Assembly (NCBI RefSeq): GCF_022482905.1
Contig: NZ_JAKVOI010000001.1
Span: 2,481,958-2,545,957 of the forward strand
Source: Clostridium sp.
Lineage (GTDB): Bacteria; Bacillota; Clostridia; Clostridiales; Clostridiaceae
DNA length: 64,000 bases
Direction of reading: 5' to 3'
The notes under the pieces were generated by a model. It was given only the letters and a program-made list of their open reading frames with translations. It was not told the origin of the DNA and did no database searches. Positions 17,144 to 31,616 of the stretch are shown here, one piece after another. Each line of letters opens with the position of its first letter. Position 1 is the stretch's first letter. The position numbers and the translations under genes were made by a program.

Positions 17144-17734
17144 TCAATAATTTTTAAGATCTTTCAATTTATAGTATATAACATAAAAGACAAGTATTCC
17201 AATCAAACTTCCCGCGAAGTCTATCACCACATCACTTACAAGTGATGTTCTTCCAGGTACAAGCTGTTGGTGAAACTCATCTGTAACAGCATATAAAAGG
17301 CATATGAACATTATATATACTATAGCTTGTTTACCTCTTAATTTAAATACATGAAGCACTCCTGAAACTATAATGGCAAGCACAAGATACTCAAAAGCAT
17401 GGGCATTTTTTCTCAAAATGAGATTCAATCTTTCCTGCCTGTTTTGAGGAATTCTGAATGCCTCTTTTATTCTGGCCTTGATTGAAACCTTCTCCTTTAC
17501 ATTTTGTGATTGCTGCTCTGAAGATTTCCCTGTTTCCCCTGGCAATATGCTTTTCCCCTCCTTTATACGTTTCAGATCATCCAGTATATTATAGCTTCTC
17601 TTATTGGACACATTCCCATTATTAGAGGAATTATAGAATATAAAACCCATCCATGTAATACACAGTACAATCAAAACAATCTTTTTAATAACATCACCTT
17701 CTTCAAGCCACTGCCTGAATTCTATTCCGGGCAC
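17144..17734 (-). CDS. VanZ-family membrane protein
   Basis: About 180-196 residues. One N-terminal transmembrane segment (VLIVLCITWMGFIFY) is followed by a polar linker and three more membrane segments with the VanZ motif TDEFHQQLVPGRTSLVSD. VanZ-like proteins give low-level teicoplanin resistance in enterococci; their general role is unclear. The start is uncertain: the first in-frame start is a GTG overlapping the stop of the upstream ATPase gene by 13 bases. A natural N-terminus would begin at IKKIVLIV, after AAGAAGGTGAT, where the codon is ATT. Confidence 0.75.
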   Translation of the reverse strand: MPGIEFRQWLEEGDVIKKIVLIVLCITWMGFIFYNSSNNGNVSNKRSYNILDDLKRIKEGKSILPGETGKSSEQQSQNVKEKVSIKARIKEAFRIPQNRQERLNLILRKNAHAFEYLVLAIIVSGVLHVFKLRGKQAIVYIMFICLLYAVTDEFHQQLVPGRTSLVSDVVIDFAGSLIGILVFYVIYYKLKDLKNY

Positions 17735-19419
17735 ACATAATAAATATCCTTTTTCCCTACCACAACAATCAATACTTTCTTCAATCTTTCTTTCCCCAGT
17801 CCTTCCTGAACCATTTTACTTTCTCCATACAATTGAAGCTGTTTCAATCCCTGCTCCTTTACTTTCTCCAAAGTGTTCCTATCACTTTCTTTTATATATT
17901 TCAATTCTATAATCCACTGAAATTTAGTTATATCTTCAAGCTGAATTTTTCTTTTAAGCATCAAATCCACATAGCCTTTGTTGTTCTCATCTTCACTTTT
18001 TATGAAATAGGTACCATCCACTCCTAAAAGAGTTAGAAATATCATTTTTACATTTTTTTCATCCATCTGTATGAGATCCCTGTTGGAAAAACTCTCCAGT
18101 ATGTCTTTTAAAAGCTCTACCATGGATTCTATACTGCCGTGCATTCGCATTTCATTTACTGCAATTCTAACCTTTTGAATTTCAATATTGTACTTTCCCC
18201 TTATATTCTGAAATTGCTGTTCCCAATAAATTGTCTTTATAACATAATTGGGTATCCTCAGTACAGTACCAAGGGGACCTGCCTCTTTTATAGTAAGCAT
18301 CCCCAGATAAAACAGCAGGGACTTGAAGTTTTCCTTTTCACTGTACATAGTATTGATGTTAAACCTGTCTACAAGAATTGTTGATGTTTCACCATCAGAC
18401 ATTATTTCCTTTAAAGCTTCCATGTCATTGAAATTATATGCAAGCTGGTTGACCTTCCCGTAATCTGTCTTTACATTATTATCTATCATTTCTTTAGGAT
18501 AACGGTCATATGCCAGATAGCCATCGAGAAAATACATGGCCATATCTGGATTGAAAACAGGCCTGCAATTTTCATTGAATTTATATCCGTCATAATAGGT
18601 TATCATATCAGTACAGATTTTTTTTCTAAGTTCCACATCATCTATATTGACTTCATCCATAATCCATGAAAGTTCCTGCCGTGTAAATCCAAGCATTGCA
18701 TTGAGCTTTTCATCCAGAGTATAGTTCCTCGTTATGTTAAAGCCGCTGGTCAGGTCATCCAGCATTATAGGACTCACCCCAGTCATGAATATTCTTGCAA
18801 AGTTATCCATAGTTGCATCTTTTACTGCCTTGTAAAATACTTTGACAAAGCCCTCTCCGTGAAGGATACTGTTATAGGTATTCTGTTTACCTCCTGTTAT
18901 CAGTTCGTTGGCAAAGTTGTCATATTCATCTATCAGAAGGAATACCTGCTGATTGCTTATTTTGCTGATCATGTTCAGATGAGATATCACCATTTCGGCA
19001 CTCATATCATCAGAAGGCAATCTGCTTTCTTCCAATAAATCATGATATTTATATAAAAATTCTCTTGCAGATGACATAACTTTAAAATTAAAGCTTTCTC
19101 TAAGTTTTTCTTCACCATACCCTGCGTCCACTCCTGCAAAACTTATTCTCAAGATTAAAAAACTGTTTCTGTACTCGGTAGGATTCTTGCCTATATAAAG
19201 ATCGCCAAACAACTTTTCAAACTTATCCTTTTTATTTATATCATAATAATTGTCCAGCATCGATATAAACAGACTCTTCCCAAATCTTCGGGGCCTTATA
19301 AAAAATTGATATGGTGCATATTGTTCCAGTACATCTATATAAGAGGTTTTATCTACATAAAGGTAGTTCTTCTCCCTCAAAACTTCAAAGTTGGAAATTC
19401 CATAAGGTATCCTCTTCAT
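17722..19419 (-). CDS. AAA-ATPase-like / PD-(D/E)XK nuclease-like protein, copy A
   Basis: 565 residues. The N-terminal AAA-ATPase_like domain (PF09820 type) starts with IPYGISNFEVLRE, has a modified P-loop RPRRFGKS (43-50) and Walker B VFLLIDEYDNF (159-169). The C-terminal part has a PD-(D/E)XK nuclease-like core: Asp485 in GYVDLML and Glu505-x-Lys507 in IIELKY. These abundant paralogous families occur in clostridia and Bacteroidetes. Their role is not established; links to mobile DNA or defence have been proposed. Copy B at 19951-21648 is nearly identical except for residues ~83-159. Ribosome site GGGAG. Confidence 0.85.
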   Translation of the reverse strand: MKRIPYGISNFEVLREKNYLYVDKTSYIDVLEQYAPYQFFIRPRRFGKSLFISMLDNYYDINKKDKFEKLFGDLYIGKNPTEYRNSFLILRISFAGVDAGYGEEKLRESFNFKVMSSAREFLYKYHDLLEESRLPSDDMSAEMVISHLNMISKISNQQVFLLIDEYDNFANELITGGKQNTYNSILHGEGFVKVFYKAVKDATMDNFARIFMTGVSPIMLDDLTSGFNITRNYTLDEKLNAMLGFTRQELSWIMDEVNIDDVELRKKICTDMITYYDGYKFNENCRPVFNPDMAMYFLDGYLAYDRYPKEMIDNNVKTDYGKVNQLAYNFNDMEALKEIMSDGETSTILVDRFNINTMYSEKENFKSLLFYLGMLTIKEAGPLGTVLRIPNYVIKTIYWEQQFQNIRGKYNIEIQKVRIAVNEMRMHGSIESMVELLKDILESFSNRDLIQMDEKNVKMIFLTLLGVDGTYFIKSEDENNKGYVDLMLKRKIQLEDITKFQWIIELKYIKESDRNTLEKVKEQGLKQLQLYGESKMVQEGLGKERLKKVLIVVVGKKDIYYVCPE

Positions 19420-19443
19420 ATCATCAGCTCCCTCTGTATCCTT
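17722..19443. repeat. Left copy of a 1722-bp tandem direct repeat
   Basis: Aligns base for base with 19951-21672 at a constant offset of 2229, covering the whole ATPase gene and its ribosome site. Outside 18946-19177 I see only isolated substitutions. The match stops sharply at both ends, just outside the gene. Confidence 0.9.
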
Positions 19444-19452
19444 ATCTAAATT

Positions 19453-19755
19453 TTACTTCTTATAGGAATTAAACATTTCAGAAGGCTCTTCAACTTCAGG
19501 ACATTTATATAATTCAAAAGGATCTATATCAAGACATTCGCCTGGATCATAAGTTCCTTGAATGTCCCATGCCAAAGTTCCGTTCAGTACAGTACATCTA
19601 TCTATAAAAATATTTTTATCTTTTATCTGTCTAAAAATCCCTTTATTTATTACACTGGAGGCATCAAACAGTTTTATTGATCCATCATCAAAGTAAACAT
19701 ATACTTTATAATCTTCAGTAGGTATCACCTGTACAACTTCTGGAAAATACTCCAT
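19453..19755 (-). CDS. DUF2442 domain protein
   Basis: 100 residues beginning MEYFPEVVQVIPTEDYKVYVYFDDGSIKLFD, the DUF2442 pattern, with DIDPFELY near the end. DUF2442 genes are often found beside DUF4160 genes in toxin-antitoxin-like pairs, but no DUF4160 partner is visible here. The start was set at the ATG after AAGGAGGG, 16 codons inside the longest frame. It lies between the two ATPase copies, so it is either the original neighbour or was enclosed by the duplication. Confidence 0.8.
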   Translation of the reverse strand: MEYFPEVVQVIPTEDYKVYVYFDDGSIKLFDASSVINKGIFRQIKDKNIFIDRCTVLNGTLAWDIQGTYDPGECLDIDPFELYKCPEVEEPSEMFNSYKK

Positions 19756-19950
19756 AGAAAATCCCTCCTTATGATAATGGTGATATTTTATTAAGTCTTT
19801 CATGTAATCTTGACAATTCCCAATTCTGCATTAATTCATTATAATTTATAGTTATCCTTATACCAAAAAACAAACTTATTTCGGGCAAAGTAAGCACTCC
19901 CTTTCAGTGATAACTCTTTTGTTATTATTTTTATTATACCCCATAATTCC

Positions 19951-21648
19951 CTATTCCGGGCACACATAACAAATATCCTTTTTCCCTACCACAACAATCA
20001 ATACTTTCTTCAATCTTTCTTTCCCCAGTCCTTCCTGAACCATTTTACTTTCTCCATACAATTGAAGCTGTTTCAATCCCTGCTCCTTTACTTTCTCCAA
20101 AGTGTTCCTATCACTTTCTTTTATATATTTCAATTCTATAATCCACTGAAATTTAGTTATATCTTCAAGCTGAATTTTTCTTTTAAGCATCAAATCCACA
20201 TAGCCTTTGTTGTTCTCATCTTCACTTTTTATGAAATAGGTACCATCCACTCCTAAAAGAGTTAGAAATATCATTTTTACATTTTTTTCATCCATCTGTA
20301 TGAGATCCCTGTTGGAAAAACTCTCCAGTATGTCTTTTAAAAGCTCTACCATGGATTCTATACTGCCGTGCATTCGCATTTCATTTACTGCAATTCTAAC
20401 CTTTTGAATTTCAATATTGTACTTTCCCCTTATATTCTGAAATTGCTGTTCCCAATAAATTGTCTTTATAACATAATTGGGTATCCTCAGTACAGTACCA
20501 AGGGGACCTGCCTCTTTTATAGTAAGCATCCCCAGATAAAACAGCAGGGACTTGAAGTTTTCCTTTTCACTGTACATAGTATTGATGTTAAACCTGTCTA
20601 CAAGAATTGTTGATGTTTCACCATCAGACATTATTTCCTTTAAAGCTTCCATGTCATTGAAATTATATGCAAGCTGGTTGACCTTCCCGTAATCTGTCTT
20701 TACATTATTGTCTATCATTTCTTTAGGATAACGGTCATATGCCAGATAGCCATCGAGAAAATACATGGCCATATCTGGATTGAAAACAGGCCTGCAATTT
20801 TCATTGAATTTATATCCGTCATAATAGGTTATCATATCAGTACAGATTTTTTTTCTAAGTTCCACATCATCTATATTGACTTCATCCATAATCCATGAAA
20901 GTTCCTGCCGTGTAAATCCAAGCATTGCATTGAGCTTTTCATCCAGAGTATAGTTCCTCGTTATGTTAAAGCCGCTGGTCAGGTCATCCAGCATTATAGG
21001 ACTCACCCCAGTCATGAATATTCTTGCAAAGTTATCCATAGTTGCATCTTTTACTGCCTTGTAAAATACTTTGACAAAGCCCTCTCCGTGAAGGATACTG
21101 TTATAGGTATTCTGTTTACCTCCTGTTATCAGTTCGTTGGCAAAGTTGTCATATTCATCTATCAGAAGGAATACAGGCATTTCTACTTTTCCAGCAAGAT
21201 GTGATATATACTCGACAGCTGCTTCTGCTTTCATGGAATATCCTTCTATTTCCTCACCAGTAAAAAAATTCGAGTACTTAACAATAAAGTTCTTCACAGA
21301 AAAAGTTACTTTTGTATTAAAGCTTTCTCTAAGTTCTTCTTCACCATGCCCTGCATCCACTCCTGCAAAACTTATTCTCCATACCAAAAAACTGTTTCTG
21401 TCCTCAGTAGGATTCTTGCCTATATAAAGATCGCCAAACAACTTTTCAAACTTATCCTTTTTATTTATATCATAATAATTGTCCAGCATCGATATAAACA
21501 GACTCTTCCCAAATCTTCGGGGCCTTATAAAAAATTGATATGGTGCATATTGTTCCAGTACATCTATATAAGAGGTCTTATCTACATAAAGGTAGTTCTT
21601 CTCCCTCAAAACTTCAAAGTTGGAAATTCCATAAGGTATCCTCTTCAT
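19951..21648 (-). CDS. AAA-ATPase-like / PD-(D/E)XK nuclease-like protein, copy B
   Basis: 565 residues, the same length as copy A, with the same P-loop RPRRFGKS, Walker B FLLIDEYDNF and nuclease-like D...ExK core. Residues 1-82 and 160-565 are the same as copy A apart from one change (ICYVCPE against IYYVCPE). Residues ~83-159, between P-loop and Walker B, are replaced by a different sequence (FTGEEIEGYSMKAEAAVEYI in place of LEESRLPSDDMSAEMVISHL) without a length change. Tandem duplicate in the same orientation; likely stand-alone transcription from its own ribosome site GGGAG. Confidence 0.85.
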   Translation of the reverse strand: MKRIPYGISNFEVLREKNYLYVDKTSYIDVLEQYAPYQFFIRPRRFGKSLFISMLDNYYDINKKDKFEKLFGDLYIGKNPTEDRNSFLVWRISFAGVDAGHGEEELRESFNTKVTFSVKNFIVKYSNFFTGEEIEGYSMKAEAAVEYISHLAGKVEMPVFLLIDEYDNFANELITGGKQNTYNSILHGEGFVKVFYKAVKDATMDNFARIFMTGVSPIMLDDLTSGFNITRNYTLDEKLNAMLGFTRQELSWIMDEVNIDDVELRKKICTDMITYYDGYKFNENCRPVFNPDMAMYFLDGYLAYDRYPKEMIDNNVKTDYGKVNQLAYNFNDMEALKEIMSDGETSTILVDRFNINTMYSEKENFKSLLFYLGMLTIKEAGPLGTVLRIPNYVIKTIYWEQQFQNIRGKYNIEIQKVRIAVNEMRMHGSIESMVELLKDILESFSNRDLIQMDEKNVKMIFLTLLGVDGTYFIKSEDENNKGYVDLMLKRKIQLEDITKFQWIIELKYIKESDRNTLEKVKEQGLKQLQLYGESKMVQEGLGKERLKKVLIVVVGKKDICYVCPE

Positions 21649-21672
21649 ATCATCAGCTCCCTCTGTATCCTT
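19951..21672. repeat. Right copy of the 1722-bp tandem direct repeat
   Basis: Partner of 17722-19443. The divergent block here is 21175-21406. The flanks on both sides are unrelated to those of the left copy. Confidence 0.9.
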
Positions 21673-21725
21673 TATATTATTTTACCATTTTGCAGCAGAA
21701 TAATATACCTGGATACTGAATGTTT

Positions 21726-21770
21726 ACTATAAATAATTATCTTCCAAATTGGAAAACTATAAATAAATTA
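21726..21770 (+). promoter_or_regulatory. Repeat-flanked palindrome upstream of the secreted helical protein
   Basis: Direct repeat ACTATAAATAA (21726 and 21756, 30 bases apart) flanks the palindrome TTCCAAATTGGAA (21742-21754). TATAAA within the repeats could serve as -10 elements. Looks like an operator and promoter, not identified. Confidence 0.4.
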
Positions 21771-21789
21771 ATTTTAGGAGGACGATAAT

Positions 21790-22389
21790 ATGCTGAAAAA
21801 AAGTATCAAAATATTATACACCCTGACCATTCTGATTTCACTGAACATCACTACTGCTCAGGTCCACGCCGTATCCTGCAAAAACCTGTCATCAATCAAC
21901 CAGACTTCACCGGGAAGACACCGAAAATCCCACTGGAAGCTCAGCCTCGACAAGCTTGTTGAAAATGGTACTATAAACGTGAAACAAAAAGATGCCGTAC
22001 TGGAATTGATGAGATCGGACAAATTCCGCAGTTCGTCAAAAAAGAAACATGGATGCTTCAAAGATAAATTGAATACACTGGTTCAGAATAAAACTATAAC
22101 TGAAAAGCAGAAATCCGCTGTAGATCAACTGCTAGATGCTTCAAAGAATCAGGGTAAAAATTTCATGAACTCCTTCAGCGATGGTCTGGATGAGCTCGCA
22201 GACAAAAAAGTCATAACCCAAGCACAGAGATCTGCCATCAAGGATTTGTTTGTCTCCTGTAGAAAAGAGCATAGAAAACAATTTGCCGAATCTTTAAACA
22301 ATGGACTGGAGACCCTTGTAAAAAACAACACAATAACTCAGAATCAGAAAAAAGCCATAATAAAAGAACTTACCAGCTTCAAGCACTGA
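21790..22389 (+). CDS. Secreted protein with four ~42-50-residue helical repeats
   Basis: 199 residues with a signal peptide ending near AQVHAVS (about residue 29). The mature part is four repeats built on the pattern L..L...NGTIN..Q..A: DKLVENGTINVKQKDAV, NTLVQNKTITEKQKSAV, DELADKKVITQAQRSAI and ETLVKNNTITQNQKKAI. The repeat resembles an EF-hand-like or helix-loop-helix unit seen in clostridial secreted proteins, but I do not recognise a characterised family. Basic and exported. Strong ribosome site AGGAGG. Single gene closed by a convergent terminator. Confidence 0.7.
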   Translation: MLKKSIKILYTLTILISLNITTAQVHAVSCKNLSSINQTSPGRHRKSHWKLSLDKLVENGTINVKQKDAVLELMRSDKFRSSSKKKHGCFKDKLNTLVQNKTITEKQKSAVDQLLDASKNQGKNFMNSFSDGLDELADKKVITQAQRSAIKDLFVSCRKEHRKQFAESLNNGLETLVKNNTITQNQKKAIIKELTSFKH

Positions 22390-22422
22390 CAGCATGTACA
22401 GTAAAACACACACCAAAAGCAA

Positions 22423-22447
22423 AAGCCGGGAAAACTCTCCCCGGCTT
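22423..22447. terminator. Convergent terminator
   Basis: AAGCCGGG and CCCGGCTT, an 8-bp stem with a 9-base loop, between the convergent stop codons at 22389 and 22451. Confidence 0.8.
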
Positions 22448-22450
22448 ATA

Positions 22451-23302
22451 TTACTTTTCCTTTTTATACAATTTATAGGCTATGGACCAGCCCTTCAGTT
22501 CCTGTGGTTTTTCAGGTTTTATGTTCGTCTGAAATGAAAAATTGCAGAGCCTTGCCCTGTAGGGACTGACTTCAAAGTTGTCCAGTTCAAACTGATTTGA
22601 ATAAACTACAACATTATCCTCATTCAACAAGGTTACAGGGATTTTACTCAGAGAAATAGGCTTGAGGGATGCATTTCTCATGACACAGGTGGCAAGTATG
22701 CTCCCATCCGTGTTTATCCCGATACTGAAGGTGGATATGCTGAATTCGCCCTCCTCCAGTTCCGGCAGTCCTTCAAGAAACTGCTCAAGGACCTGCCTGT
22801 CCTTGTCCTCTATGTCTTCAGGAAGTCCTTCATATCTCGTACGTACCTTCCTGCTTATTTTAAATGTTCCACTTAAAGCCAGTTCCCAGTTTTCCGGTAT
22901 TATGTCGAATTTTACATTTTTCTTGTCAAAGTAAACCTTTATAGGTCTTACAGAATGAGGTGGAAGCTGTCCTAACTTTCTGAGATCAAATATCTGATCT
23001 GCAATGATATTTCCCTCTGAATCCTTGATTACAAAAGGTATATCCTCCAGATTGAGATTCTCGGAAAGACCGTTCCTTACATATACCTTCATCTCATATT
23101 TATCTTCATATTCATATAAGTATACACCGGAAACATTCAGTTCCCCTTCTTTTATGGGAGGCAGTTCTTTTACCTCATCTTCCATAATTTCCTTCTGGAC
23201 ATCCGATACTACAACACTATCCTTTTCAAGAAGAGACAGTTTTGTGGATACGTAATCCTCTCTATCATTATCCTGCAGCTTATTATCTGTTTTTTTAACC
23301 AT
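22451..23302 (-). CDS. SLAP-domain protein, S-layer-assembly type
   Basis: 283 residues. Two related beta-rich repeats (about residues 45-135 and 175-275) contain the SLAP pattern: GVYLYEYEDKYEMKVYVRNGL...IPFVIKDSEGNIIADQIFDL and FSISTFSIGINTDGSILATCVMRNA...IPVTLLNEDNVVVYSNQFEL. SLAP repeats occur in S-layer-associated proteins, including an accessory-Sec-linked S-layer assembly protein of bacilli. No signal peptide is seen, so it may act in the cytoplasm, and no secA2 is in the window. The start was set at 23302, since GGAGG lies 11 bases before it and the longer frame lacks a ribosome site. Confidence 0.75.
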   Translation of the reverse strand: MVKKTDNKLQDNDREDYVSTKLSLLEKDSVVVSDVQKEIMEDEVKELPPIKEGELNVSGVYLYEYEDKYEMKVYVRNGLSENLNLEDIPFVIKDSEGNIIADQIFDLRKLGQLPPHSVRPIKVYFDKKNVKFDIIPENWELALSGTFKISRKVRTRYEGLPEDIEDKDRQVLEQFLEGLPELEEGEFSISTFSIGINTDGSILATCVMRNASLKPISLSKIPVTLLNEDNVVVYSNQFELDNFEVSPYRARLCNFSFQTNIKPEKPQELKGWSIAYKLYKKEK

Positions 23303-23461
23303 ATATCGTTGTTCCTCCATTTGTGTTTTCATGTAAATACAATAATTATATTATACTATAATAAAAAGCTTTATTCTATACAGTATGACAAATTACCACA
23401 ATGATGCCGTATAGTAATTTTATATCCCGGATGGTATAATAAGCTAAAGGGGGTATGACAA

Positions 23462-25210
23462 ATGAAGCATCCTTCAAAATATTATTTAATGCTGATTCTA
23501 TGCCTGTCGGCGGCACTTATCCTTTCTACACTGCCTCAATCATCGAAGGTCATGGCGGACAGCGGTAAAACTTATTCCATAATCCCTATAGATTCTTCCT
23601 CCGACAGTACAGTCATATATACATTCCAGGGCAGTACAGCAAAGATAAAAAGCGGCAATCTGTACGGTCTTGTGTCTTCTGAAGGTAAAATACTTGCAGA
23701 ACCGCAGTTCACTTCCATATCAAGCTTTCAAGGCGGCTATGCAAAGATCCAGAAGGGAACAAAATACGGAATTATTTCCCGGGAGGGCAGGATAATAATA
23801 GCTCCTGAATTCGACGATATTTCATACTTTTACAGCGAGGGAATCGCAGAGGTGTGCATGAATTCAAAATGGGGACTTGTAGACAGATCCGGGAAAAAGC
23901 TGACGGAACCTGAATTCGACTATATATATGAACCTGAAGACGGCTTTATCAGGGTGAGGGAAAACAACAAATACGGTTTTCTGGATATAAAGGGAAATGT
24001 ACTCTGGAACTGCAATCTTGATGATGCCTCGGACTTCAATGAAGGTTATGCAGCTGTAAAATCAGGTTCTTCCTGGGGCTTATTGGACAAGTCAGGCAAT
24101 TTCACAAGCCTCGGCTTTGATGCTTTAAAAGCACCGCGGAACAGCATGCTCCCCGTGAAGAAAGACGGAAGCTGGGGAATTGCAGATATGAAAGGCAATC
24201 TGATTATACCTGAAAAATACAAGGACATATCCTTTTTAAACGACAATCTCATCAAGATAAATACCGGAAGCAAATACGGACTGATAGACAAAAATGGAAG
24301 TACTATACTTGATGATGACTATGATGGAATAAACTATGTCAACAACGGCATGTATTCCATAAAACGTGCAGACAAGACAGGACTGATGGATTCCAGCGGC
24401 AGGATAGTTCTTCAGCCGCAGTTCGACTGGATGGACAATTTCAGCGAGGGCAAGGCCATAGTGAGCATAAACGGCAGGTACGGTTTCATAAATAAGGATC
24501 TGACGGATATGAAATACAAATATAATCTCTATGACGCTGACAAAATATATGCCTTCAGCGAAGGCCTTGCAAGAATTGAGAAGAACGGAAAATACGGCTT
24601 CATGGACAGCAATGGGAATATTGTCATAGAGGCTAAATTTACAAGCGCCCGTGACTTCAGTGAAGGCTATGCCGCCGTGGCAGTTGAGAAAGTCACGAAA
24701 GGAGACTCGTCTTCCAGGCTTTCTACAAAGTGGGCATATATAGACAGGCTTGGTTCCACTTTTACAGGATATGACTTTGACAGTGCCTCGTCCTTCAGCA
24801 GTGGTTCAGCGGCAGTACTCCAGGGCAGTTCCTGCAGCATTATAAAAAACAGCGATATCAAATTTCTCGGAAATAAAACCGAATCGGACAGCCATAAAAT
24901 CTGGCAGATAAATTTCAACAGGCCGCTGGACGACAAAACCGTGAAAAATAGTTCGGATGACAGCATCATAACAAGCAGCATGGAAATGACCATGGCAAAC
25001 AACGTAAAAGTTACGGACAGCACCGGAAAGGTCATTGACATATCCATGGAATTCAGGAGTCCCTCGTCAATAATCATAAATCCACCGCCTGAGGGCTACA
25101 CCAGGGGAGAACAGTATACAATAACAATACTGGACAATATAAAAGACAAATCAGGAGTTAAAATAACACCTTCAATAACAAAGATTGACTTTTCAATAGC
25201 CGGGAACTGA
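23462..25210 (+). CDS. Secreted WG-repeat protein with C-terminal Ig-like domain
   Basis: 582 residues with a signal peptide (LMLILCLSAALILSTLP). Residues ~45-450 are about ten WG/KWG beta repeats of the form YGLVSSEGKILAEPQF, YGIISREGRIIIAPEF and YGFMDSNGNIVIEAKF. The last ~110 residues (IWQINFNRPLDDKTVKN ... YTITILDNIKDKSGVKI) resemble the Big_5/SbsA-type Ig-like domains of the S-layer proteins nearby. The repeats probably form a binding surface at the cell wall; the ligand is unknown. Ribosome site AAAGGGGG. A TGGTATAAT extended -10 stands at 23432-23440. Confidence 0.85.
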   Translation: MKHPSKYYLMLILCLSAALILSTLPQSSKVMADSGKTYSIIPIDSSSDSTVIYTFQGSTAKIKSGNLYGLVSSEGKILAEPQFTSISSFQGGYAKIQKGTKYGIISREGRIIIAPEFDDISYFYSEGIAEVCMNSKWGLVDRSGKKLTEPEFDYIYEPEDGFIRVRENNKYGFLDIKGNVLWNCNLDDASDFNEGYAAVKSGSSWGLLDKSGNFTSLGFDALKAPRNSMLPVKKDGSWGIADMKGNLIIPEKYKDISFLNDNLIKINTGSKYGLIDKNGSTILDDDYDGINYVNNGMYSIKRADKTGLMDSSGRIVLQPQFDWMDNFSEGKAIVSINGRYGFINKDLTDMKYKYNLYDADKIYAFSEGLARIEKNGKYGFMDSNGNIVIEAKFTSARDFSEGYAAVAVEKVTKGDSSSRLSTKWAYIDRLGSTFTGYDFDSASSFSSGSAAVLQGSSCSIIKNSDIKFLGNKTESDSHKIWQINFNRPLDDKTVKNSSDDSIITSSMEMTMANNVKVTDSTGKVIDISMEFRSPSSIIINPPPEGYTRGEQYTITILDNIKDKSGVKITPSITKIDFSIAGN

Positions 25211-25211
25211 C

Positions 25212-25249
25212 AAATCAGGAACGATCCCCAACGGGACCGTTCCTGATTT
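25212..25249. terminator. Convergent terminator
   Basis: AAATCAGGAACG and CGTTCCTGATTT form a 12-bp stem with further pairing inside (CCCC against GGG), between the WG-repeat gene and the lipoprotein gene. Confidence 0.8.
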
Positions 25250-25265
25250 CACCATTTCAAGCTCT

Positions 25266-25664
25266 TTATTTTATATTTATTTTCGCAACATTCTTATTGT
25301 TTTTCACCGCTATTACACTTACAGGCATATCCTTGTGCTCTTTTTTCAGTTCATCGGCATATTTCTGTGCAAGGGCCTTTGCATCGGAATCTTTCGTTCC
25401 ATCCTTCACTACCATGGTGGCTATGACCTTTTTGCTCTGGACATATACTTTGCCATTCAATATTATATTCTCGCCCTTCAGCTTTTTGGTTTTATTCTCG
25501 TCTACAGCTATCTTCGCTCCTCTTGTACTCCCCTGATTTTGTGAAGCCTTTTTAGAGGTATCCACTCCCTGGGATGATTTATTCCCGAAGGAACAAGCTG
25601 TAAGAGACACAACCAATAGTATAAGCACAGCCAAAATGCCAAGTTTTCTTGATCTGGTTTTCAC
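25266..25664 (-). CDS. Small lipoprotein of unknown function
   Basis: 132 residues with a type II signal peptide: hydrophobic LGILAVLILLVVSLTAC, lipobox LTAC with the Cys at about residue 24. The mature protein has a Ser/Gln/Lys-rich linker, then a ~75-residue alpha/beta domain (KVIATMVVKDGTKDSDAKALAQKYADELKK ... VSVIAVK) reminiscent of the YhcN/YlaJ sporulation lipoprotein family; this is only a resemblance. The GTG at 25664 is chosen because GGAGAG lies 8 bases upstream; a GTG three codons earlier overlaps that site. Confidence 0.65.
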   Translation of the reverse strand: MKTRSRKLGILAVLILLVVSLTACSFGNKSSQGVDTSKKASQNQGSTRGAKIAVDENKTKKLKGENIILNGKVYVQSKKVIATMVVKDGTKDSDAKALAQKYADELKKEHKDMPVSVIAVKNNKNVAKINIK

Positions 25665-25774
25665 TATTATCACTCTCCATGTATTAACTCCGGGATTTTG
25701 CCCCGCTAGAGTTTATTGTAACACATTTTGAAGATTTTAATAGAGCTTTTCACAGTGTTAATAGATTTTTAAAA

Positions 25775-26971
25775 TCAATTCTCCAGATTGTACTGGAACT
25801 GCTGCACTGCCTCCATATAGTCATTCTGTGCATTTTTCAGGTTTACGAGTTCACTGTCCAGTGCCAGCTTGGCCGAATCTGCCTGAAGCTGTACTTCTGT
25901 TCCAAGTTTTACCTTGGACAATATAGTATCGTAATTAGCCTGTGCACTGGCTACCTTTGCGTTTTCAACAGCTACATTGTCTTCAAGATTTTTAAGGTTG
26001 TAATAATCGTTCCACAGTCCCAGCTTGAGATTCAATTCAGTATCTGCAAGGGAATTCTGCAGATCCTGTATGCTGAGCCCCGTACTCACCTCGCCTGTGG
26101 CATCATTATAGGAATATTGCTTGTATATATCCTCTTTTATATTGAGTATTGCAAGATTGTTGTTTATCTTGCCTATGTCATAGTCATTTTTGACTGCACT
26201 TTCAATCCTGTTTGCAATATTGCCGTCGTCAAACTTTTTGTACTCCTTCTGTGCAGGGGTAAGGGTCAGTTCACTGTCGAGATCCATATTTATGGCCTGC
26301 TTTATACTCAGAAGGTTCTGCTGGAGCTGTGACTCGGGTGTATTCAGTGATGCCTGAAACTGGCTCTTCTGAACATTCAGGGATTCAAGAGCATCGGAAG
26401 TTAGAACACCCTGCTCTATTTTCTCTTTGGTCTGTTCAATCTGCTGGTCCACATTTTCTATCTGTGCATCTATAGTATTTATCTGATCCTGGCAGGTAAG
26501 TGCAGACATATACTGCTTTTCAACAGTAAACTTCATATTCTGAAGTGAATCCTCCCTGTCATGCTTTGCATCTTTTATATTCTGATCGTCAACTTTAGGT
26601 ATGACATCGGTCTGAAGTTTTATATTTACGTACTGTCCTCTAGGGTAGTTCACTTCACTTGTGTCACTATCTTTTATAAGTGTGGCATTCATGCTGTCCC
26701 TGTCATACTGCCTCTGATAGAGCAATATCTTCTGGTCCTTGGACTTGATCTGTATGTTGTTTTTTTCTATATACCCGAGCACCTGGTCAAGGTTCAACGT
26801 CTGATCTCCTATTATTGAATATTGGGAAGTGACAGAACCTGTACCTTCAGCTGCTGCGGAAATGGAAGCAGTTGAACCTGCAGCACCTGCTGTTGGAGCC
26901 GCCGCAAGACATACTGTACCTGTACTGAGTGTAACTGTCAGTGCAGTGAATATAATGAGTTTGTTTCTCAT
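25775..26971 (-). CDS. TolC-family coiled-coil protein (second of a pair)
   Basis: 398 residues with a signal peptide (IIFTALTVTLSTGTVCLA). The mature protein has long amphipathic helices with repeated TolC-type segments, e.g. QIDQTKEKIEQGVLTSDALESLNVQKSQ and YDTILSKVKLGTEVQLQADSAKLAL, the duplicated outer-membrane-factor pattern. In diderms TolC forms the outer-membrane exit duct; the other genes here indicate a monoderm, so the protein presumably works in the wall space. It follows its paralogue by 17 bases. Start moved three codons to the ATG after AAGGAGG. Confidence 0.8.
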   Translation of the reverse strand: MRNKLIIFTALTVTLSTGTVCLAAAPTAGAAGSTASISAAAEGTGSVTSQYSIIGDQTLNLDQVLGYIEKNNIQIKSKDQKILLYQRQYDRDSMNATLIKDSDTSEVNYPRGQYVNIKLQTDVIPKVDDQNIKDAKHDREDSLQNMKFTVEKQYMSALTCQDQINTIDAQIENVDQQIEQTKEKIEQGVLTSDALESLNVQKSQFQASLNTPESQLQQNLLSIKQAINMDLDSELTLTPAQKEYKKFDDGNIANRIESAVKNDYDIGKINNNLAILNIKEDIYKQYSYNDATGEVSTGLSIQDLQNSLADTELNLKLGLWNDYYNLKNLEDNVAVENAKVASAQANYDTILSKVKLGTEVQLQADSAKLALDSELVNLKNAQNDYMEAVQQFQYNLEN

Positions 26972-26988
26972 ATTTGCCATCCTCCTTT

Positions 26989-28122
26989 TTAATTGATTTT
27001 CGATGTATCATTTCCTATATCGCAGGCCTGACCCAGCTTGAACTGTGCCATCCATATATCTCTCTGTGCAGCTTTCACTGTATTCTGGGCACTTTTCAAA
27101 TCCAGCGCTGCAGTATCAAAATCTATTTTGCTGATAACCCCTACATCATATTTTACGCGCTGGGTATCATAACGGGTCTTGGAAAGGGCAAGTGCATCCT
27201 TTTTGGACTTAAGCATCCTGTTTTTAACCTGGAGGTCATTGTAAAGGCTGTTTATCTCCGGGATTATGTTCAACTTCTGAATCTCAAGGCTGTCGGAAGC
27301 ATTGTCCACATTTGCCTGTGCCAGTCTGTTCGGTACGGACTGCGTATTGGGGAATACACCGCTTACCACTTTATATTCAAACTTCTGCAGATTTATATTT
27401 TCCTGGGCTACAAGTATCTCCGCCCTCTTTTCAAGTGCACCGTTCAAATATTCATCGTAGCTTCTTATATAAGGTGTTTCAGTGAACTTGTCTCTCAGTA
27501 AAGTATCATATTTTGTGTAAAGATCGGCACCCAGAATCTTGTTCATATTCATAACATCCAGGTCATACTTTCTCTGTGCTCCATCCAGTTTGGCCTTTTG
27601 CGTATTGTAATCCGCCTCCGCCTTTTTCTCATCTGAAGGAGATATCAAACCAAGGCTCAGTTTTGACTTTGCACTGCTATACTTTTCCTCTTCATTGGCC
27701 ATTTTCTGATTTTCAAAATCAAGCTCATCCCTGTCATTCATGAGGGCAGTATACTGGGTATAGGCAGACAGCTTTATTTCATTTTCAGCCACGGATTTCA
27801 TCTGTGTGTACTTGTACTCGGAAAACTTGTCCTCTCTGCGTGGATTGGATATTCCCTGCATAAGGGAAAGTCTTGTATATGCATCCATGTCCGGGCCACC
27901 CTGATCCAGCTGGTCAGCGTAGCTGCTAGCATTCTTTACATCCGCATCATATGAATTCTGTGCCTGTTTTATGGAAATGTCCATGCTCTTGACCTTGTAG
28001 GAACTTGATATGGCAGCATCTATGGATGCATCTATATCCAGGGTATTTCCGGCTGCAAAAGCCGGAGTACCCGAAAATACAATAGCCAGTATGCACAACA
28101 CTGCTGTTTTTAACTTGTTCAT
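26989..28122 (-). CDS. TolC-family coiled-coil protein (first of a pair)
   Basis: 377 residues with a signal peptide cleaved near AFAAGN. Two related helical halves include YSSAKSKLSLGLISPSDEKKAEADYNTQKAKLDGAQ and YDTQRVKYDVGVISKIDFDTAALDLKSAQNTV, the hallmark internal duplication of TolC/OEP proteins. It forms an apparent two-gene unit with the gene at 25775. There is no efflux pump or membrane-fusion gene beside it. The nearest upstream neighbour is the S-layer-like gene at 28252-31563. Ribosome site GGGAGG. Confidence 0.8.
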   Translation of the reverse strand: MNKLKTAVLCILAIVFSGTPAFAAGNTLDIDASIDAAISSSYKVKSMDISIKQAQNSYDADVKNASSYADQLDQGGPDMDAYTRLSLMQGISNPRREDKFSEYKYTQMKSVAENEIKLSAYTQYTALMNDRDELDFENQKMANEEEKYSSAKSKLSLGLISPSDEKKAEADYNTQKAKLDGAQRKYDLDVMNMNKILGADLYTKYDTLLRDKFTETPYIRSYDEYLNGALEKRAEILVAQENINLQKFEYKVVSGVFPNTQSVPNRLAQANVDNASDSLEIQKLNIIPEINSLYNDLQVKNRMLKSKKDALALSKTRYDTQRVKYDVGVISKIDFDTAALDLKSAQNTVKAAQRDIWMAQFKLGQACDIGNDTSKIN

Positions 28123-28215
28123 ATTTACCTCCCTTCCTGTTCATCAAAATGTTTTTATACTAACAATTACAAAATAATTTTACCATAAATATAAAAATAT
28201 TGCCATATATTCAAT

Positions 28216-28246
28216 AGAGGATTGTCATTTTTCATGACAATCCTCT
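28216..28246. terminator. Terminator after the 1103-residue CWB2 gene
   Basis: 12-bp perfect inverted repeat AGAGGATTGTCA and TGACAATCCTCT with a 7-base loop, 6 bases past the stop codon. Confidence 0.8.
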
Positions 28247-28251
28247 TCTGT

Positions 28252-31200
28252 TTATTTTGCAGTTACAGTATATCCGCTCAAGTCATCACCTGAAGGTGAG
28301 TAAATGGTATATGCAGCATCTTCATGTTTTTCACTTCTTATGCTGATACCGGCACCACTGCTGTTTGCAGCTATCTTGATAACATCCCCCTTGTCGAAGG
28401 AAGCTGCGTTGAATCTGTAGATTACAGTCTTTCCGTCAACACTTATGGCATTTGGAGTGACTGTCCTACCTGTACTTACATCTGTAAATATGAAATCATC
28501 TGAATACTGACTTTGTATGGCAGTATCTATATCCTGATTGAATACCACTTTTACAGTATCCGCATTTGAGGCATTTGTGGCAGTAAATTGATTTGATCTT
28601 GTTATAGGAGGTATATAAACCTTTGTGGAACCTGTCCTTATATTTCTCCCTGCAGAATCCATGGAATTATTATTGACTACACTTAAGGTTGTACTTTCAC
28701 CACAGTCCTTTATGCCTTCTACCTTTTCGCCATCCTTAACCCCCGACTTGTATATTAATATGACATCATTTCCAGTGCTGTACGCATTGTCCGGCTTGTA
28801 TCCATCCACCTTGAAATCATTCAAGTCAAGTGAATCAAGTGCTCCGGAAAGAGAAACCTTGACGCTTATATCATCACCGCTGAATGTCATCTCGGCCGTA
28901 CCCGATATAATTTTAGGCCCATTGCTGCTGGTTGTACTTATATCCCCTATATATGACCCGAGATCAATAGGTGTCCCGTCCTGATCCACCACATTTTCAA
29001 CCCCGACCTGGATTACATTTCTGGCTGTGGTTCCTTCTCCGATGGTATAATTTGAAGGGAATTCAACAGTTACACTTTTATCATCATAGGAAGGTGTTAC
29101 AATTGCCCCCCCAGGCAAATTCTTGACCTCTCCTGTTCCGTCCCTGAACACATAATTTGATTTGTCGGATATGGAAGCATCGTCCATGGTATGATTGAAA
29201 AATATAGCAACAGCCTGATCATTGTCAAATCTTTTGACTATTTCAGTAACGCTTACACCTTTGCTGTCCATACCCGATAGAGTGGCAGTATAGGTAGTCA
29301 TGACATTCGGTTTTGCCTCGGTGTCTATGATATTTTTCACCGTCAACGTATATTTAGATCCGTTCAACGTACCATCGTCAAATTTGAGATCAAAAGTTCT
29401 GTTGTTGTTTCCATCCACGGTTATGGTATTGACATTGTTCAACTTGTAGCTTATGTCATTTCCATCAGAATCCATGAGTTTGTAGTTGCCTGTATTTGTG
29501 GCATAACTTCTTACAACATCCTTGTTGAATTTGACCCTTATTGTCTCTTCATCCAGAATATTTGAAGAGGCAACTTCGGGCTTTTCGCTGCTGCTTCCAT
29601 AATAGAGGGTGGTACTTGTCTGATTGATGGTATTATAGAAGGTATCCTGCACATCATCCTTGACCAGAACCGTATTTGTCCCCTGCTCCAGCATGTCCCC
29701 GACGTTCTTTATCCTAACGGTGCTGTCCCCCGAACCGGGTTCGAAGGTTACATAGGACTCATCAACATCCACATCGTCACCGTTTATCTCATAGTTGTCC
29801 GGGTCAAGTGCTGTTTCCTGGTCCATTGCCCTGTTGTACTTTATATATATTGTACCTGCATTGTCACTCGTAACACTTTCTACCTTTGGTGCTCCATATA
29901 CAGATTCAACTGTGAAATTCTTTGATTGGCTCTGAATTGGAATATTGGCCGCATTGTCAAATTTACTCCCCGATGTGCCATCAGGAATGGTAAAGGTATT
30001 GCTGCCTACAGGAAGTGTGGAATTAAAATAGAGGTCAACCCCATCCGACCAGTCACCGGATTTATCCTTGAACTCCGTATCGGAAGTATCCAGGCCGTAG
30101 TTCCTAACGCTTCTATTATTTATTTTCATGGAAGCCAGATCGTCTTCATCCATTCTTACAGCTTCTGAAAATTTAACCCTCAATTTGTTGCCCCCCACAG
30201 GAGTGACGGATTCAATTGACGGAGATCCTGTTTCCTGAAATGTAACTTCCTTTTCATATTCTGTGATACTGGAAGACAGTTCATCGGAAAGCACATTATT
30301 CTTTACGGTAAAATTGACCTTCTTCCCCTGTTTGAAGGGATTCTTGAAGGTAATTACGACCGTCCTGCCGTCATCCTGCAGATATGCGGAGGACTGGGTC
30401 TGTGCCTCCGAGCCAAGAGAACTCCCATCTATTTCATAATTTGCAATTCTCTCTGCAGAGCTTTCATCCACTGCAGTATTGAATACAACCTTTATCTGAT
30501 TCAGCCCAACCGCTGCTACAGAATTTACAGTGCTGCTGTCATTTGCAATTCCTGCTGCCGCATTCTTTATATCCGAGACTGTGGCATCTGAAATCACACC
30601 CTTTTCCGAAATTATATTTACCTCCGTTGAGCCGGATGCCTTTGACCTTATGTAGTCAAGTGCATTACCCGTCTGTGCGTCACCCTCTCCATTTACAATA
30701 ACAAGGGGTGAAGAGTTTATTCCTGCAAGAGATGCAGCTATAAGTGAATCGGCATATCTGGCTCCCGAAGCATTGGCCACATATATTTTGTCGGATTTCA
30801 AGCTGCCGTCAAAGGCCTTCAATACATTTAGATTTGTTGCAAACCTGTCGGCACCGCCGTTTATTCTTGCAACAGCACCAAGTGACTTGTAGGTATCGTC
30901 ACTTATGGTATTGCTCGTACCAACTACGGTAACAGCCGAATTATGACGGTCGACGAAATCCGCCACAGAAGACATGCTTGTCCTGTCATTTCCCCCGAGA
31001 AGAAGTATCTGGCCTTTTGCTGCAGCAACCGGAGCTGCGGAAAGGGTGTCCGAGAAATTGCCTCCACCTGCCATAAGGACATTTGAAGGGTCAACGCCAA
31101 GTTTTACGAGCTGTTCTGCAACAGATGCATTGGTGTCATATCTGTTCCCGCCGTAGAGTTCAATCAGATTGTAGTTCTCATCTCTGAGCTGATTTCTTAT

Positions 31201-31563
31201 TGCCTGGGATATTACTCCCGTTCCTCCTATGATGTATATATTCTTCGGTTTCAATTTGTCCAGTGCAGCTTTTGCACTGCTGTTCAAATATGTACCCCCC
31301 GTGAGGAGTATCGGTGCATCAAGCTGTTTTGAAAGTGCAACGGAACTAAGTGCATCTGCATAACCTTCGCCTGAAACAAGCAGTACGTTTTCACTATCCG
31401 TCCAGTTGGAAGTTGCCGCAAGAGCTGCCGTTTCATAGCTGTCCGCACCTTCAACACTTGTAACACTTCCTGCGGCTTCTGCAGATACAGCCGGAACTGC
31501 CGCAGAGAGAACAAGTGAAAGAATCGTGGTACTTCCTATGGTTTTAATTGCCCTTTTATTCAT
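28252..31563 (-). CDS. S-layer-like protein with three CWB2 repeats and Ig-like domains
   Basis: 1103 residues. A signal peptide (STTILSLVLSAAVPAVSAEA) is followed by three CWB2 repeats (to about residue 340), each with the DRYxT-type and IIGGTGVIS-type motifs that bind secondary cell-wall polymers. The rest is a chain of SbsA/Big_5-like modules (VGLNQIKVVFNTAVDES, RVKFSEAV, RVKFNKDVVRSY, AIFFNHTMDD). It parallels the 1211-residue protein at 58495 along most of its length but lacks that protein's C-terminal module. Start at the ATG after TGGAGGTAGGG. It directly follows two sigma-like genes (53 bases); an extended -10, TGGTACAAT, occurs in that gap. Confidence 0.88.
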   Translation of the reverse strand: MNKRAIKTIGSTTILSLVLSAAVPAVSAEAAGSVTSVEGADSYETAALAATSNWTDSENVLLVSGEGYADALSSVALSKQLDAPILLTGGTYLNSSAKAALDKLKPKNIYIIGGTGVISQAIRNQLRDENYNLIELYGGNRYDTNASVAEQLVKLGVDPSNVLMAGGGNFSDTLSAAPVAAAKGQILLLGGNDRTSMSSVADFVDRHNSAVTVVGTSNTISDDTYKSLGAVARINGGADRFATNLNVLKAFDGSLKSDKIYVANASGARYADSLIAASLAGINSSPLVIVNGEGDAQTGNALDYIRSKASGSTEVNIISEKGVISDATVSDIKNAAAGIANDSSTVNSVAAVGLNQIKVVFNTAVDESSAERIANYEIDGSSLGSEAQTQSSAYLQDDGRTVVITFKNPFKQGKKVNFTVKNNVLSDELSSSITEYEKEVTFQETGSPSIESVTPVGGNKLRVKFSEAVRMDEDDLASMKINNRSVRNYGLDTSDTEFKDKSGDWSDGVDLYFNSTLPVGSNTFTIPDGTSGSKFDNAANIPIQSQSKNFTVESVYGAPKVESVTSDNAGTIYIKYNRAMDQETALDPDNYEINGDDVDVDESYVTFEPGSGDSTVRIKNVGDMLEQGTNTVLVKDDVQDTFYNTINQTSTTLYYGSSSEKPEVASSNILDEETIRVKFNKDVVRSYATNTGNYKLMDSDGNDISYKLNNVNTITVDGNNNRTFDLKFDDGTLNGSKYTLTVKNIIDTEAKPNVMTTYTATLSGMDSKGVSVTEIVKRFDNDQAVAIFFNHTMDDASISDKSNYVFRDGTGEVKNLPGGAIVTPSYDDKSVTVEFPSNYTIGEGTTARNVIQVGVENVVDQDGTPIDLGSYIGDISTTSSNGPKIISGTAEMTFSGDDISVKVSLSGALDSLDLNDFKVDGYKPDNAYSTGNDVILIYKSGVKDGEKVEGIKDCGESTTLSVVNNNSMDSAGRNIRTGSTKVYIPPITRSNQFTATNASNADTVKVVFNQDIDTAIQSQYSDDFIFTDVSTGRTVTPNAISVDGKTVIYRFNAASFDKGDVIKIAANSSGAGISIRSEKHEDAAYTIYSPSGDDLSGYTVTAK

Positions 31564-31607
31564 AAAATCCCTACCTCCAGTGTTTTTTGGAATATATGAA
31601 TATTGTA

Positions 31608-31616
31608 CCATAGATA
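31608..31616 (-). promoter_or_regulatory. Extended -10 in front of the 1103-residue CWB2 gene
   Basis: Minus strand TGGTACAAT, preceded by the bases ATCTA. The 12-base run around it is the same as at the S-layer P2 promoter except C for T in the hexamer (ATCTATGGTAtAAT). No matching GTAGAA -35 is present here. Confidence 0.4.

Follow-up and report, generated by a model that had tools for sequence, protein, structure and literature searches.

Two near-identical genes for STAND-like NTPases with a predicted nuclease domain differ in one exchanged cassette in a Clostridium

Two gene copies and the block in which they differ

We analysed a 64,000-nucleotide stretch of Clostridium sp. (assembly GCF_022482905.1, contig NZ_JAKVOI010000001.1, positions 2,481,958 to 2,545,957), hereafter the window, which contains two genes of the DUF1703 family encoding nucleoside triphosphatases (NTPases) with a predicted nuclease domain. 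These copies, c1 and c2, are the sole PF09820 matches in the genome (E <= 0.001; single 3.57-Mb contig). The genes and the parts compared below are:

17722..19419, minus strand: copy 1 (c1), 565-residue STAND-like NTPase with a predicted PD-(D/E)XK nuclease (PF09820 and PF08011), cassette type I; from open reading frame (ORF), Pfam and predicted structure
19951..21648, minus strand: copy 2 (c2), 565-residue STAND-like NTPase with a predicted PD-(D/E)XK nuclease, cassette type II; from ORF, Pfam and predicted structure
18946..19089, minus strand: exchanged cassette of c1, type I, codons 111-158; from copy alignment and relatives
21175..21318, minus strand: exchanged cassette of c2, type II, codons 111-158; from copy alignment and relatives
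19090..19179, minus strand: c1 codons 81-110, mild divergence beside the cassette, 9 nucleotide differences from c2; from copy alignment
21319..21408, minus strand: c2 codons 81-110, mild divergence beside the cassette; from copy alignment
17722..18945, minus strand: near-identical block of c1, 3' part of the gene, 2 differences from its counterpart at 19951-21174; from copy alignment
19178..19443, minus strand: near-identical block of c1, 5' part of the gene and 24 nucleotides upstream, 1 difference from its counterpart at 21407-21672; from copy alignment

The copies align at an offset of 2229 bases, and their identity runs from the stop codon (17722) to 24 nucleotides upstream of the ATG (19443). 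Between 17722-19443 and 19951-21672, only 3 of 1,490 bases differ outside the block 18946-19177 (positions 17741, 18481 and 19348), against 96 of 232 inside it. The near-identity of the two proteins that the original prediction had read from the sequence alone was thus confirmed, while the scattered changes it described outside the block come down to one residue (Y560C); the other 43 of the 44 residue differences fall within 83-158. The divergent block, which it had placed at residues ~83-159, is real, but its boundaries were refined to codons 81-158, with the exchanged part at 111-158. In this core 87 of 144 bases differ; counted by codons, 83 of 138 bases differ in 111-156 and only 8 of 87 in 82-110, where both copies read 'ISFAGVDAGxGEE'. 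At third codon positions the copies share 28.3% identity in the cassette against 99.4% in the backbone, and therefore the block was replaced, not mutated. Both this contrast in the density of differences and its recurrence in relatives make the pattern non-random.

Both proteins carry AAA-ATPase_like (PF09820, residues 5-224; 191-194 bits) followed by PDDEXK_9 (PF08011, residues 453-558; 72-73 bits) in the expected order, well above the curated cut-offs of 26.1 and 25.5. In the P-loop, R42, P43, R44, F46, G47 and K48 are invariant in 52 of 52 aligned sequences and R45 and S49 are kept in at least 90%; D164, E165, Y166 and D167 of Walker B are likewise invariant in all 52, as are D485, E505 and K507 of the nuclease, whose Q527 is found in at least 90% (D..ExK plus the family Q). 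The same two domains, the RPRRFGKS P-loop, the DEYD Walker B and the nuclease motifs are described for the DUF1703 family (Knizewski 2007, PMC1913061) and its Cardinium members (PMC6387759). The C-terminal PD-(D/E)XK domain is predicted to be a nuclease. Walker A (42-49) and Walker B (160-167) flank the cassette, as originally proposed.

AlphaFold models of c1 and c2 place the same two helices in either cassette, within a STAND-like NTPase whose predicted fold is that of the STAND/NLR-like NTPase module; the NTPase is followed by a nuclease resembling that of Wolbachia CidB/CinB. In these models the cassette would take in the last part of one helix, then a loop and the second helix directly before Walker B, and both helices are amphipathic. 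A fold match to archaeal ATPases (PDB 2qen, 2fna) spans model residues 2-400, with the C-terminal nuclease part outside the match. In the VIA list, rows less than 1 Z apart were counted as ties, and absences were given no weight as evidence. A sequence search of solved structures returned no meaningful match (best E 0.041). We conclude that c1 and c2 are STAND-like NTPases, related to the archaeal ATPases and to the nucleotide-binding modules of NLRs, with a predicted PD-(D/E)XK nuclease at the C-terminus.

Decoupling of the cassette from the backbone among relatives

Relatives were collected by searching 98 and 206 genomes for family members and by scanning genome contigs once. The comparison set comprised 22 genes, c1 and c2 included, with more than 70% identity to c1 and a long open frame; fragments were dropped, and the 5'-broken copy of genome G008 was retained. 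Over codons 79-162 these genes align without gaps, and five cassette types were assigned by eye:

Type I: c1, C. liquoris, C. acetireducens, G227, G224; variants G171 and BP5
Type II: c2, C. carboxidivorans, C. acetireducens, cel8
Type III: G004, G008, CS001
Type IV: Hathewaya (two copies), G217, KNHs214, G229; variant G219
Type V: Hathewaya, KNHs214

Types I, II and V have support of 100, 100 and 97 on the cassette tree. Codons 106-150 are the most variable of the gene, with an identity of 0.42-0.60 against means of 0.88 for codons 1-81 and 0.81 for 159-565.

Backbone nucleotide identity is 80.8% in the 46 within-type pairs and 80.7% in the 185 between-type pairs, whereas cassette identity is 78.0% within types and 57.3% between them; the latter contrast is partly circular, as the types were read from the cassette, and the equality of the backbones is not. 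When distances in 46-codon windows were compared with those of the rest of the gene, r was 0.57-0.83 clear of the cassette, 0.13-0.14 over it and 0.43 for codons 139-184. For codons 111-156 it was 0.08, a value reached in 728 of 5,000 permutations. The result held when each genome was represented by a single gene (17 genes after five were dropped), with r 0.06 for the cassette (483 of 2,000 permutations) and 0.43-0.76 for the other ten windows. In approximately unbiased (AU) tests the cassette rejected the backbone tree (2e-32) and the backbone rejected the cassette tree (2e-41). The five types require 14 changes on the backbone tree, where shuffled types need 12.9 on average (4,714 of 5,000 shuffles need 14 or fewer), and only 4 on the cassette tree.

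Along the gene, c2 is closest to c1 except over codons 111-157, where C. carboxidivorans is closest (88.7% nucleotide identity); over these codons the nearest relative of c1 is G224 (75.9%). The cassette is less alike than the backbone in 158 of 231 pairs (p < 0.001) and more alike in 4 (p < 0.05, uncorrected), which include c2 with C. carboxidivorans (p 0.005). Because cassette and backbone reject each other's trees and the nearest relative changes at codons 111-157, these comparisons strongly support recombination at this single site. Exchange at one site, which had been proposed for c1 and c2, is thus borne out by the relatives and not by the pair alone; for c1 and c2 themselves the route may have been import of a cassette or homogenisation of the remainder.

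Five of six same-genome pairs differ in cassette type; the two Hathewaya copies that do not are both type IV. In Clostridium sp. KNHs214 (L143, G228:C11:223000-242000), two copies 7.7 kb apart share 98.2% of the backbone and 68.8% of the cassette. Further differences lie beside the cassette at codons 164-257 and look like an imported flank, which favours the import route in this genome. Beyond the genus, two genes of one low-coverage Anaerolineae metagenome-assembled genome (MAG) have 93% backbone and 39% cassette identity (segment 107-158), and two genes from different Aminicenantes MAGs have 79% and 24%. A divergent-segment score, which is uncalibrated, was passed by 131 of 132 pairs with at least 72% identity, and the strongest segment lay within 85-170 in 87 of the 131 (median edges 112-158). 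These comparisons show that cassettes have been exchanged many times, within and between species, among close relatives, probably by homologous recombination between the conserved flanking sequences.

Neighbouring genes and turnover of the locus

Three further features adjoin the two copies:

19453..19803, minus strand: DUF2442 gene between c1 and c2; from Pfam
19840..19947, minus strand: remnant of a DUF4160 gene preceding DUF2442; from comparison with G008
21673..21708, minus strand: c2 upstream element (GTAAAATAATATA and a partial inverted repeat); read by eye

Elements similar to that of c2 occur in other Clostridium genomes, upstream of the relatives L141, L034, L142 and L148, and none upstream of c1, which lies directly behind DUF2442; the element is a possible promoter or operator. 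In G008 the DUF4160 gene is whole and stands in front of DUF2442 (L204:6620-7242). Among 13 same-genus genomes, our own included, DUF2442 has an 85% relative in G008, 6.6 kb from a broken family copy, and weak relatives (22-33%) in 3 others. DUF2442 was rejected as a conserved operon partner, as the family loci searched held it only at our own locus, apart from one weak match in L034 (30%, 59 residues).

In cel8, VanZ and SLAP, the genes on either side of the locus, are direct neighbours, and window positions ~17703-22450 have no counterpart there. Family genes are found in six of the 13 genomes (E <= 1e-60), with broken copies in four of those six (G001, the second copy of G004, G008 and G011). 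Such turnover would suit conflict genes or mobile genes. A search with c2 by tblastn found 54 plasmid and 28 phage records, all below 60% identity, and viral contigs held 23 relatives at 23-49% identity. No terminal inverted repeats were found at the gene edges. A 14-nucleotide inverted repeat flanks c2 (19844-19857 and 21751-21764; 93% complementary), but it is AT-rich and may be chance. Within the region missing from cel8 also lies a 199-residue ORF (21790-22389) with, by eye, a signal-peptide-like start and internal repeats, which has no relative among the family loci compared.

Family genes lie near S-layer-type genes in the window, G001 and G008. The S-layer-type cluster of the window (22451-31611) comprises a SLAP-domain protein, a WG-repeat protein, two OEP (TolC-like) domain proteins and a CWB2 protein, and in G008 two CWB2 genes have a broken family gene between them (L204:10151-18930). 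Pfam matches of c1, c2, DUF2442, VanZ, the 199-residue ORF and nine further window proteins included no hsdS, hsdM or hsdR domains. In a survey of neighbours for signs of a defence island, 126 of the 151 ORFs found were taken, from 19 loci; the loci L143 (partly identical to L038) and L139 were omitted, as was one surplus ORF. The best 25 of 171 Pfam families matched were mainly general families, with no background set for comparison.

A candidate recognition surface and its alternatives

Our favoured reading, to which we give about even chances, is that recombination repeatedly swaps the surface with which a STAND-like nuclease would recognise a partner or ligand. A role of the cassette in specificity or partner choice is plausible given its two amphipathic helices in the models, and we infer that it serves as a recognition surface and that the STAND-like switch carrying it controls the nuclease; defence against phages or mobile DNA would be its most likely purpose. 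At rest the protein would be an autoinhibited NTPase switch, and the variable outer face of the cassette would read a ligand or partner. An NTP-driven rearrangement or oligomerisation would then activate the nuclease against DNA. A cassette swap would alter recognition, or allow escape from an inhibitor, with switch and nuclease kept constant. More tentatively, and as less likely than not, we suggest a widespread single-protein, NLR-like bacterial nuclease whose sensor, in place of a repeat domain, is the ~48-residue cassette in the NTPase, traded between species as immune-type recognition alleles, with near-identical copies serving to widen or switch recognition. c1, which does not have the upstream element of c2, could be a stored alternative cassette.

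Several results weigh against this reading. The proteins match no PADLOC model, AVAST/Avs included (0 families at E <= 1), and the Pfam scan found no repeat sensor domain of the kind that canonical STAND sensors have. Of the 126 neighbouring ORFs, at least one was matched by each of 112 PADLOC families, again with no background set for comparison; none of the best 25 families matched more than 9 ORFs, which is also the number matching ABC_tran, and two of them are GajB/UvrD-like. Variability is periodic in the first cassette helix (p 0.004) and not significantly so in the second (p 0.15), and the outward exposure of the cassette is itself something we infer. Types III and IV are not clean clades on the cassette tree, and all types were called by eye. 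Within the C-terminal part, each half likewise rejected the tree of the other, if less strongly (8e-4 and 2e-4), and therefore some recombination occurred outside the cassette. In 44 of the 131 pairs the strongest divergent segment falls outside 85-170, 13 of them owing to one broken N-terminus (gene L008). In a set of 64 more distantly related members the cassette diverges in step with the backbone (r = 0.76), so free exchange is visible among close relatives only.

The main rivals are a tolerated surface patch and a DNA-targeting or mobile role. If the cassette were a loosely constrained part of the outer surface where imported DNA is harmless, specificity would stay unchanged; this unlikely alternative fits both the high variability of codons 106-150 and the correlation in the wider family. 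It predicts gradual drift, however, whereas discrete types were seen, whose internal identity is near that of the backbone, and the 14 type changes among 22 genes are not expected from it; other variable regions (256-270 and 406-420) track the backbone (window r 0.59-0.64). A DNA-targeting or mobile gene, whose cassette would touch DNA or a partner of the transposition type and determine the target site, seems improbable too; an equivalent region makes such contacts in ORC/Cdc6 and TnsC-like ATPases. Regulator docking of the MalT-MalY kind gave no direct precedent for the cassette, because helices 7 and 8 of MalT lie after Walker B and the cassette before it; these are the helices on which MalY docks according to the MalT-MalY paper.

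Gene conversion alone, with old paralogues homogenised except where heterology in the cassette stopped the tracts and without selection on the cassette, would account for very recent identity limited to the gene and 24 nucleotides upstream, ending at heterology. We consider it very unlikely, as it fails to explain the types common to unlike backbones in different genomes or the nearest-neighbour switch at codons 111-157, and the differences beside the KNHs214 cassette look imported. Short reads can mis-join near-identical repeats of 1.2 kb, but an assembly artefact, raised with the original prediction, is barely credible as the main cause: the copies lie on a single contig with distinct unique flanks, each cassette has relatives elsewhere, and other genomes show the same pattern. 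At worst, the flanks of the two cassettes could have been interchanged.

Parts of this pattern have precedents. Intragenic recombination was reported among 25 Cardinium DUF1703 paralogues (PMC6387759), a likeness to the present genes; those paralogues average 39% amino acid identity with no homogenisation reported, unlike c1 and c2. As far as the available text of that paper and PMC1913061 goes, exchange was not placed in one cassette, nor were discrete types across species described. Literature on such exchange in STAND or AAA proteins yielded, in the text available, nothing on the DUF1703 family. STAND proteins are defined by an N-terminal effector, an NTPase and a C-terminal sensor (PMC12931631), a layout that c1 and c2 do not have, since Pfam shows nothing beyond AAA-ATPase_like, starting at residue 5, and PDDEXK_9, ending at 558. 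Compared with the STAND immunity NTPases (Avs/AVAST, NLRs, CED-4/Apaf-1), they have an N-terminal NTPase and a C-terminal effector, no C-terminal repeat sensor, no PADLOC match, and variation inside the nucleotide-binding domain. A defence review table lists PF09820 in RADAR RdrA, PARIS1 and Old-Tin proteins (PMC10952713), whereas c1 and c2 match no PADLOC model. The archaeal ATPases resemble the predicted NTPase part, the nuclease lying outside the matched region. Wolbachia CidB/CinB resemble the nuclease in predicted structure; such CI-like toxins are without this AAA-ATPase domain, and their nuclease core sites differ considerably (PMC6387759). Type I hsdS genes are alike in evolutionary pattern, with a conserved backbone, exchangeable specificity blocks and duplicated copies carrying different blocks (PMC7394358); here the cassette, whose role in specificity is putative, sits in the NTPase and not in a DNA-recognition subunit.

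The original prediction had called the role of the family not established, in agreement with PMC1913061, PMC6387759, where it is still to be determined, and PMC12039267, which treats family fragments as mobile-element candidates; the available text of these papers and of PMC10952713 contains no functional assay of DUF1703 proteins. In this widespread family, the sole site of module swapping points to the probable seat of specificity. c1 and c2 form a natural cassette-swap pair: the backbone is shared, a single residue differs outside the block, and the part played by the cassette can therefore be tested directly, with no engineering. If true, it would mean that STAND-type sensing can lie inside the nucleotide-binding domain.

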